A stretch of DNA of 64,000 bases, from contig OX031060.1 of NCBI GenBank assembly GCA_943736015.1, forward strand, positions 4,484,001-4,548,000. The letters run 5' to 3'. Under the pieces are notes generated by a model. The model made no database searches and was not told the origin of the DNA. It was given only the letters and a program-made list of their open reading frames with translations. The first letter of the stretch is position 1, and the number at the start of each line of letters is the position of its first letter. The DNA is from Tridacna crocea. Taxonomy: Eukaryota; Mollusca; Bivalvia; Cardiida; Cardiidae. The position numbers were made by a program, and so were the translations under genes. Shown piece by piece: positions 57,549 through 58,076 of this stretch.

Positions 57549-58076
57549 ATGATCATCACAAACGTGGTCTACAGCGCTCAACTCAACTGCCATATTGATT
57601 TAAGACAACTCTGCTACAAAATAACGAATGTACGGTATGATCCAGCACGATTTCCCGGGTTGATATGGCAGCACAGAAAAATTGGAGGAAACTGTTTAGT
57701 GTTTTCTAACGGTATTATCAACTGTAACGGTAAAGCTTCGAGTAAAAGAGAGGGGTATAAACGGATACGAAAATATGCCAGACTGCTTCAGAATTGCGGA
57801 TATCCCGTAAAATTTTCGGACGCAAAACTTTTAACTATGTCTATGAGCCATACCCTCAGTTCGAATTTGGATCTGAAGCGTTTGTCTTTCGATAGAGATG
57901 TCGTATACGAACCAGAGTTATTTCCTTCCCTTAACTTTAAACGGAAAGGTGTGCATTTTTGTTGCTTTCATACGGGGAAAGTGGTTATAACGGGTGTAAC
58001 CTCTCCACAACAAGAGGACGAGGTTGTTTGTCCCACACTAATTGAACTCGAACTCTATACGCGTAAGAAGGAATGA
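57549..58076 (+). CDS. TATA-binding-protein-like protein
   Basis: 175 residues with the two direct repeats of the TBP saddle. Repeat 1 (about 2-88): ITNVVYSAQLNCHIDLRQL, YDPARFPGLI, LVFSNGIINCNGKAS, RKYARLLQNCGYPVKF. Repeat 2 (about 92-160): LDLKRLSFDRDVVYEPELFP, CCFHTGKVVITGV. The four DNA-intercalating phenylalanines of TBP align with Phe35, Phe52, Phe125 and Phe140. The spacing is 17 residues in repeat 1, as in TBP, but two shorter in repeat 2. Length equals a TBP core without an N-terminal extension. It presumably binds TATA boxes in the nucleus and may direct transcription of the element's own genes, three of which have clear TATA boxes. It diverges strongly from host TBP, so it is not a recent capture. 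I know of TBP homologues in some large DNA viruses but not as a standard Polinton gene. Confidence 0.85.
   Translation: MIITNVVYSAQLNCHIDLRQLCYKITNVRYDPARFPGLIWQHRKIGGNCLVFSNGIINCNGKASSKREGYKRIRKYARLLQNCGYPVKFSDAKLLTMSMSHTLSSNLDLKRLSFDRDVVYEPELFPSLNFKRKGVHFCCFHTGKVVITGVTSPQQEDEVVCPTLIELELYTRKKE

Follow-up and report, generated by a model that had tools for sequence, protein, structure and literature searches.

The frame at 57549..58076 (+) of the window, by which we mean the whole 64,000-nucleotide stretch of Tridacna crocea DNA analysed here, is a genuine and selected TATA-binding protein (TBP) gene that belongs to a mobile Polinton lineage and is mostly inherited together with a tandem PC4 gene. 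Judging from the sequence of this protein and of its neighbourhood, we consider it moderately probable that it acts as an element-specific promoter-recognition factor, which would recruit host TFIIB and RNA polymerase II (Pol II), probably to the late genes of the element.

Results

A TBP gene inside a Polinton

The first-pass annotation read both TBP repeats into this 175-residue frame and proposed a profile search, and the search bears the reading out: the frame matches the Pfam TBP family (PF00352) strongly, with E 3.3e-29 and 101 bits against a cut-off of 22.9, in two stretches that correspond to the two tandem repeats. It also aligns over residues 3-152 to solved TBPs in the PDB at E about 3e-22, and the NCBIfam TBP models match it down to 5e-23, yet under those models' own cut-offs. 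Phe35, Phe52, Phe125 and Phe140, which the same annotation had named as intercalating, do fall on the four phenylalanine columns of the alignment that we take to be the DNA-intercalating positions. Identity to the host TBP is 35%. The host genes for TBP and for TLF/TBPL1 lie elsewhere in the genome and have introns, the TBP core being split into four separate pieces (C3, L038) and TLF likewise into four (C4, L039), whereas the gene in the window is intronless.

The gene sits in an element of 16.9 kb that runs from 53884 to window-coordinate 70748 and is bounded by terminal inverted repeats (TIRs) and a 6-bp target duplication. Its features are as follows, where the letters A to D denote Polinton lineages of this genome, A being that of the window.

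53878..53883, no strand: target-site duplication CTTCTT, 6 bp; the identical six bases follow the right end
53884..54873, no strand: left TIR, starting AGTAGTATACGGGT; blastn against L040, best pieces 94-98%
55283..55771, plus strand: PC4 (p15) coactivator; PF02229 E 2e-25, two stretches in one chain; PDB PC4 E 7e-8, one stretch
55969..57081, plus strand: integrase, rve plus chromodomain; PF00665 E 1.2e-14, PF00385 E 2e-9
57490..57498, plus strand: TATATAAAG, candidate TATA-like site of canonical form, 50 nt upstream of the TBP ATG; called from sequence
57549..58076, plus strand: Polinton TBP, 175 aa from ATG, two TBP repeats, intronless
58062..59154, plus strand: recurrent CGTAAGAA motif, candidate late box, at 58062, 58333, 58488, 59108, 59132 and 59147, with minus-strand occurrences at 61124 and 62042; a statistical call
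58096..58443, plus strand: orfA; ATG start within the TTG frame of 58042
58440..58865, plus strand: orfB, 141 aa; a 30-31% identical ORF in 8 of 12 retrieved lineage-B loci
58853..59197, plus strand: orfC, 114 aa, basic C terminus
59206..60468, plus strand: capsid-like ORF, 420 aa from ATG; 34-42% identity to an ORF in 9 of 12 retrieved lineage-B loci
60764..61087, minus strand: orfD, 107 aa; a 29-30% identical ORF in lineages B and D
61120..61773, minus strand: DNA-packaging ATPase, Pox_A32 type; PF04665 E 7e-7
62775..64000, minus strand: DNA polymerase B (PolB), C-terminal part; PF03175 E 4.6e-13; runs past the window, start at L040:3562
70748 (window-coordinate; L040:6748): end of the partner (right) TIR

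Since it has TIRs, a 6-bp target duplication, an integrase with rve and chromo domains, an A32-type ATPase and PolB, the element is a Polinton. A 158-bp tandem repeat (2.9 copies, 54062-54528) lies within the TIR, and register-shifted blast matches suggest such a repeat at the other TIR end too.

The TBP gene had been placed between the integrase and capsid genes. The integrase side of this placement stands (rve plus chromodomain, 55969-57081). On the other side, a run of overlapping ORFs downstream of TBP ends in the 420-aa ORF, the candidate for the double-jelly-roll major capsid protein of a Polinton. This ORF matches nothing in Pfam, NCBIfam or the PDB sequences, so that the name capsid stands for a presumed similarity. 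No TFIIB was found among the 13 distinct ORFs of the A element that were scanned with Pfam (PolB by its C-terminal part). An adenovirus-type protease is seen in lineages B and C, just under the cut-off (PF00770 E 6e-4 and 8e-4), and was not located in the window's element.

Copies, lineages and gene order in the genome

A six-frame TBP-profile search of the 1.05-Gb genome, in which the window is C5:4484001-4548000, gave 102 rows, which fall into 59 places, host exons included; because the genome searches score the best candidates, all copy counts given here are lower bounds. For lineage A we took the best-scoring copies, at 3.2-kb loci (L002-L020, L009 being the window itself). These are near-identical, and the 175-aa TBP frame is open in 18 of the 19, L002 being broken; the integrase lies upstream of TBP in 18 of 19, and the series orfA-orfB-orfC-capsid ORF follows downstream in every one. 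Older A-like copies are mixed: L034 has TBP open and other genes split, L037 has TBP split, and L035 and L036 keep the first half. The first TBP repeat of these last two sits after an integrase.

Lineage B is 42-45% identical to A in TBP, 52-57% in PC4, 56-62% in the integrase, about 56% in the ATPase and, as given above, 34-42% in the capsid-like ORF. Its genes run PC4-TBP on one strand, followed on the opposite strand by protease, capsid-like ORF, orfB, integrase and ATPase, with PC4 just upstream of TBP in all 12 retrieved copies. TBP is open in 12 of 12 (169 aa in 11 of them, 184 in one), the retrieved copies being mostly those without stops; at six further B-like places, which were not retrieved, five show a stop inside the matched repeat.

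The gene is no isolated host insertion, which would have contradicted the first-pass annotation: it is open in 18 of 19 best-scoring A copies and 12 of 12 retrieved B copies, and protein relatives exist in other bivalves. An isolated insertion of this kind, or a chance ORF, is ruled out by the TBP profile match together with the open frames and the conserved gene context across copies.

Three loci (L024, L026 and L031) look recombinant, with a lineage-B PC4-TBP block on a backbone whose ATPase is about 33-36% identical to that of the window. L024 and L025 have in common a 2.5-kb PC4-TBP-protease block at 99.3%, after which the L024 backbone is unrelated, the break lying beside the protease gene. 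L031 was excluded from alignment A2.

Host TFIIIB targets Ty3 integration, and one could imagine that the element TBP similarly tethers the integration complex to promoters or to TFIIIB-bound genes, given that TBP adjoins the integrase in lineage A. In lineage B, however, its neighbours are PC4 and the protease rather than the integrase, and at this one insertion there is no tRNA gene within window 48000-64000 and the target duplication CTTCTT is not TATA-like. We therefore regard a role in integration targeting as very unlikely.

Selection and origin

Compared with the diverged copy L034, TBP differs at 24/114 synonymous and 21/411 non-synonymous sites, which gives a dN/dS of 0.21 (Fisher p 1e-6), comparable to the 0.14 of the capsid-like ORF against the same copy. 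Within lineage B the mean TBP dN/dS is 0.37, from few changes per pair (L021 against L025, p 0.04). Between A and B the synonymous sites of TBP are saturated, with pS 0.85 and pN 0.42. The TBP gene is under purifying selection.

Could the gene nevertheless be a useless captured passenger, or a paralogue of host TBP that sits next to a Polinton by chance? Some copies are indeed broken (L002, and the B-like places with stops), though this is expected of any transposon gene. The idea is contradicted by frames that are open in 18 of 19 and 12 of 12 copies at dispersed loci, by the dN/dS of 0.21, and by the conservation of the gene between lineages with saturated synonymous change, and the host TBP and TLF genes are found elsewhere, with introns. 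We give it practically no credence.

For the phylogeny, which covered the family beside cellular TBP and TLF, 50 rows were chosen by hand, 43 of them from the family. The family rows form one clade (SH-aLRT 100) on a branch of length 2.35, for which the program warns of long branches, and this clade falls on the side of the eukaryotic sequences, apart from three archaeal TBPs (SH-aLRT 98). In a comparison with host TBP and TLF of the kind that had been proposed, the element TBPs thus stand as one clade far from both. Joining the family to TBP and joining it to TLF are indistinguishable (AU p 0.37 and 0.38, again with the long-branch warning and with one archaeal row of odd composition). A recent capture of host TBP or TLF finds no support from this tree, in which the family rows group together on their one long branch.

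Linkage to PC4 and distribution among Polintons

The first-pass annotation was silent on the PC4 gene, which is the usual companion of TBP. PC4 lies within 12 kb of TBP at 46 of the 59 places (host exons counted), every time upstream and on the TBP strand. The 13 places without a nearby PC4 comprise five host-gene rows, four half-length frames in inverted pairs and four scattered copies. Such inverted pairs consist of frames of ~106 aa with one TBP repeat each, about 10 kb apart (C10:22143112/22153269 and C4:60394598/60404174). A single-chain PC4 with two PC4 stretches is found both in A (window 55283-55771) and in B (L025:3066-3551), and the lineage-C protein (L042:528-1007) is similar by eye. 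The window's PC4 has a Cys-rich tail, again by eye.

How are the two genes distributed over the Polintons of this genome? We used the identity of each ATPase to that of the window as a rough clock, taking the best 150 of 255 ATPase rows and, of these, 147, since three were second pieces of one gene. In the two nearest identity bands TBP lies within 13 kb of the ATPase in 41 of 43 cases (29 of 31 at >=75% identity and 12 of 12 at 51-57%), as against 4 of the 104 others. PC4 without TBP occurs near 7 of 14 ATPases at 47-48% and near 1 of 19 at 45-46%, and neither gene was found near any of the 18 at 37-44%. At 32-36% both genes are near 4 of 53 ATPases; the two of these four loci that were inspected (L024 and L026) are recombinant in appearance, and the C11 case may be mere neighbourhood, because it lies beside a B element with an ATPase of its own. 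The simplest history would be that PC4 was acquired first and TBP later, in one Polinton clade; loss in the other Polintons may also have occurred. Since many Polintons here have no detectable TBP, the gene is not generally required by such elements.

No TBP was found in lineage C; in its place come an ORF with a Death domain and two others that have no Pfam match at cut-off. The Death-domain ORF (L042:1067-1462, in the Polinton at C1:11206000-11211500) lies between PC4 and protease and scores 28.1 bits with PF00531, above the cut-off.

Residues of the DNA floor and of the machinery surface

To read residues across the family we aligned 147 members, namely 144 of the 154 listed homologues (160-222 aa; 10 were dropped for length) and three from this genome, to human, plant, host and archaeal TBPs. 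The first three intercalating positions hold Phe in 145, 147 and 146 of the 147; the fourth holds Phe in 94 and His in 47. Among the B copies of this genome (L021-L032) the first of these positions is Phe in L021, L022, L023 and L032 and Tyr in the other 8 of 12.

From TBP-TATA structures we take certain Asn, Val and Thr positions of the floor to be the residues that read TATA. In the C-lobe, Asn has become Thr in 145 of 147 members and Val has become Ser in 143, with Thr kept in 138; in the N-lobe, Thr is replaced by Asn, Gln or Ser in 146 and Val by Asn or Gln in 131, with Asn kept in 141. The element TBPs therefore do not match the canonical Asn/Val/Thr floor of the host type, and nearly all of the 144 aligned database relatives show the same changes. 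A Glu that we presume to contact TFIIA is Arg in 133 of 147, so that some host contacts may be lost. As for TFIIB, passages of PMC7221094 describe two acidic residues of the C-lobe as the TFIIB/TFB contact; in our own mapping these would be the two Glu of YEPE, and at those columns E or D stands in 138/147 and 144/147.

With the intercalating and TFIIB-contact residues mostly kept and the floor changed, the machinery side of the protein looks ordinary, while the DNA-reading side appears re-set, and much alike across the family. The residues suggest, in other words, that TFIIB contact is retained and DNA reading altered. If TFIIB contact is indeed kept, then the element probably still works through host TFIIB and Pol II, and it would be the choice of promoter and not the machinery that is uncoupled; the earlier proposal that an element TBP could uncouple late genes from host control is in this sense plausible.

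A different use of the same surfaces would be host shut-off, where the element TBP competes for TATA boxes or for TFIIB and lowers host transcription as a dominant-negative or decoy. The four Phe and the acidic TFIIB-contact residues, mostly kept, would allow this, and the Arg at the presumed TFIIA contact could give a non-productive complex. However, the residues of the TATA-reading floor are changed in nearly all members, which would make a poor competitor for TATA, and that its partner at 46 of 59 places should be a coactivator gene, PC4, points to activation. Host shut-off is in our judgement unlikely.

Upstream motifs and candidate promoters

In lineage A, PC4, TBP and PolB have the TATA-like sequences ctataaaaat, tatataaag and tatttata less than 100 nt from their start codons; in lineage B, PC4 has tataaaag upstream and TBP only gataaag. 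Early genes are marked out by TATA in a soft way at best, because TATAAA is common in A (18 in the 9.1 kb of the element examined) and because the B TBP has only GATAAAG upstream.

The candidate late motifs differ between the two lineages, and they were chosen after the data had been seen. Lineage A has CGTAAGAA at 8 sites in 9.1 kb, always on the coding strand of late genes, and in B the motif is ATAAGAG, with 5 occurrences in 7.3 kb, all on the coding strand. When the upstream stretches are resampled by a Markov model, the count of the leading A 7-mer, GTAAGAA (6/11), is reached in 0 of 200 trials and that of the leading B 7-mer, ATAAGAG (4/10), in 14 of 200, the two jointly in 4 of 200. CGTAAGAA is often in phase with Arg-Lys codons. 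As a second control the codons were permuted inside the ORFs: the 5 of 8 A genes that have CGTAAGAA upstream were equalled in 1 of 2000 trials, and the 4 of 8 B genes with ATAAGAG upstream in 8 of 2000. For the common core TAAGA[AG] the same procedure gives 25 of 2000 in A and 176 of 2000, a weak result, in B. Polintons without TBP give a mixed picture, with similar strings in some, which speaks against the motifs: L042 has no ATAAGAG, one CGTAAGAA, and a TATAAGA 40 nt before PC4; in L043 CGTAAGAA is absent and a single ATAAGA stands on the strand opposite the genes; and L044 has ATAAGA before the ATPase. Altered specificity of the TBP and a late box of TAAGAR type are suggestions, and we take the motifs as a lead.

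If host TBP were limiting, the element might merely supply more of it, with specificity unchanged. The TBP domain and the TFIIB surface are kept, and in lineage A both PC4 and TBP have canonical TATA-like sites upstream, as such a supply would have it. Against it stand the deep divergence from host TBP (35% identity, branch 2.35) and the family-wide changes of the floor, and we think a simple supply of TBP quite unlikely.

Relatives in other hosts

In the protein database 152 proteins match the window TBP at E < 1e-3, 281 match the A+B profile at 1e-5, and 233 are relatives of the PC4 of A, some of them in clusters of up to 796 member sequences. The best 120 of each of these sets (152, 281 and 233) are listed, with 154 different TBP relatives among the matches listed; the unlisted ones, above all those of the A+B profile, may include cellular TBPs. 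Among the matches listed, the relatives of TBP and PC4 that carry a name come from Mercenaria, Pinctada, Mytilus, Ruditapes and Mactra. A few others are from bacterial MAGs (Sedimenticola and Thiodiazotropha), and these we have taken for host contamination.

These relatives are known from their protein sequences. Two listed TBPs and Polinton-type PC4s are on contigs of identical size (9321 and 2449102 bp), a match of size alone, which suggests that TBP and PC4 are linked in other hosts as well; four more such size matches, on contigs under 1.1 kb, may be chance. In the contigs of IMG/VR and GTDB neither the window protein nor the family profile found any relative. This absence means little, because those scans find almost no known TBPs: the canonical TBP profile gave none in IMG/VR and one archaeal locus in GTDB. 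Two Polinton-type TBPs of Mercenaria are named uncharacterized protein (P0029) and 'TATA-box-binding protein-like 1' (P0039), and under such names these proteins may be confused in databases with host TBPL1 or with other host genes.

Discussion

How might an element with its own TBP work? In the reading that we favour, that of an element-specific promoter-recognition factor, the early genes (PC4, TBP and PolB), with their TATA-like sequences, would be transcribed by way of host TBP and Pol II. Once made, the element TBP would bind variant boxes ahead of the packed morphogenesis genes, candidates being those of TAAGA[AG] type, would bend the DNA there by means of its Phe residues, and would use the Glu-Pro-Glu-Leu stirrup that it retains to recruit host TFIIB and Pol II. 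PC4, as a single-chain double, may help as a coactivator or as a single-strand binder. The element would in this way switch from early to late genes much as herpesviruses do with their late-gene TBP mimics, but with a true TBP and with no TFIIB of its own among the ORFs scanned.

A fuller picture, which we put forward only tentatively and hold to be rather less probable than its core, is that one clade of animal Polintons carries a minimal orthogonal kit for promoter recognition, composed of a TBP with a re-set floor and a single-chain double PC4, working with host TFIIB and Pol II on TAAGAR-type late boxes and largely free of TFIIA. Such a kit may have been built stepwise, PC4 and then TBP, and moved between backbones by recombination.

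In eukaryotes TBP stands at the centre of promoter recognition, and that a transposon lineage should keep what looks like a re-specified copy is unexpected. Our favoured reading would imply a temporal, virus-like gene programme of these Polintons inside animals, and so bears on the open question of Polinton virions. That many near-identical element copies carry a TBP of their own suggests that host transcription machinery is directed to element genes. The family also offers a small example from nature of a TBP whose DNA-contact residues are altered and which may still bind to host TFIIB; this could be useful for understanding how TBP reads DNA.

The element shares with known Polintons/Mavericks its TIRs starting with AG, the 6-bp target duplication, the rve-chromo integrase, PolB and the A32-type ATPase, and differs from them by the addition of TBP and the tandem PC4. 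The first-pass annotation set TBP outside the usual Polinton gene set, and we found neither TBP nor PC4 reported in a Polinton in the literature searched, which covered few subscription papers, so that the novelty is provisional. Papers found there deal with mirusviruses and elements like them, with giant viruses or, in one review, with transposons.

Cellular TBP, the TFIID subunit, and TLF/TBPL1 have the same two-repeat domain, intercalating Phe and TFIIB-contact residues. Unlike them, the element TBPs form a separate clade (support 100, branch 2.35), have a changed floor, and are intronless and multicopy in a transposon; the host TLF, moreover, lacks the first three Phe, which the element TBP has.

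TBPs also occur in giant viruses and mirusviruses, according to passages of PMC7221094, PMC10132985, PMC11464507 and PMC12085832. PMC7221094 describes wide divergence of those viral TBPs at the positions that contact TFIIB, and a TFIIB-like protein in nearly all of the viruses concerned. By that published description the element TBP is different: its acidic pair is mostly retained, and the ORFs scanned gave no TFIIB.

In function, the closest parallel comes from the beta- and gammaherpesviruses, whose late-gene TBP mimics, such as EBV BcRF1 and KSHV ORF24, read TATT boxes according to passages of PMC4922670 and PMC13345323. As the same passages have it, these mimics act together with several more viral factors, and ORF24 contains additional domains. 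Here too a TBP-like factor is encoded by the element itself and is proposed to serve non-canonical late boxes with host Pol II. In contrast to the herpesvirus mimics, however, the element TBP is free-standing, is found by a plain sequence profile, and is usually paired with PC4.
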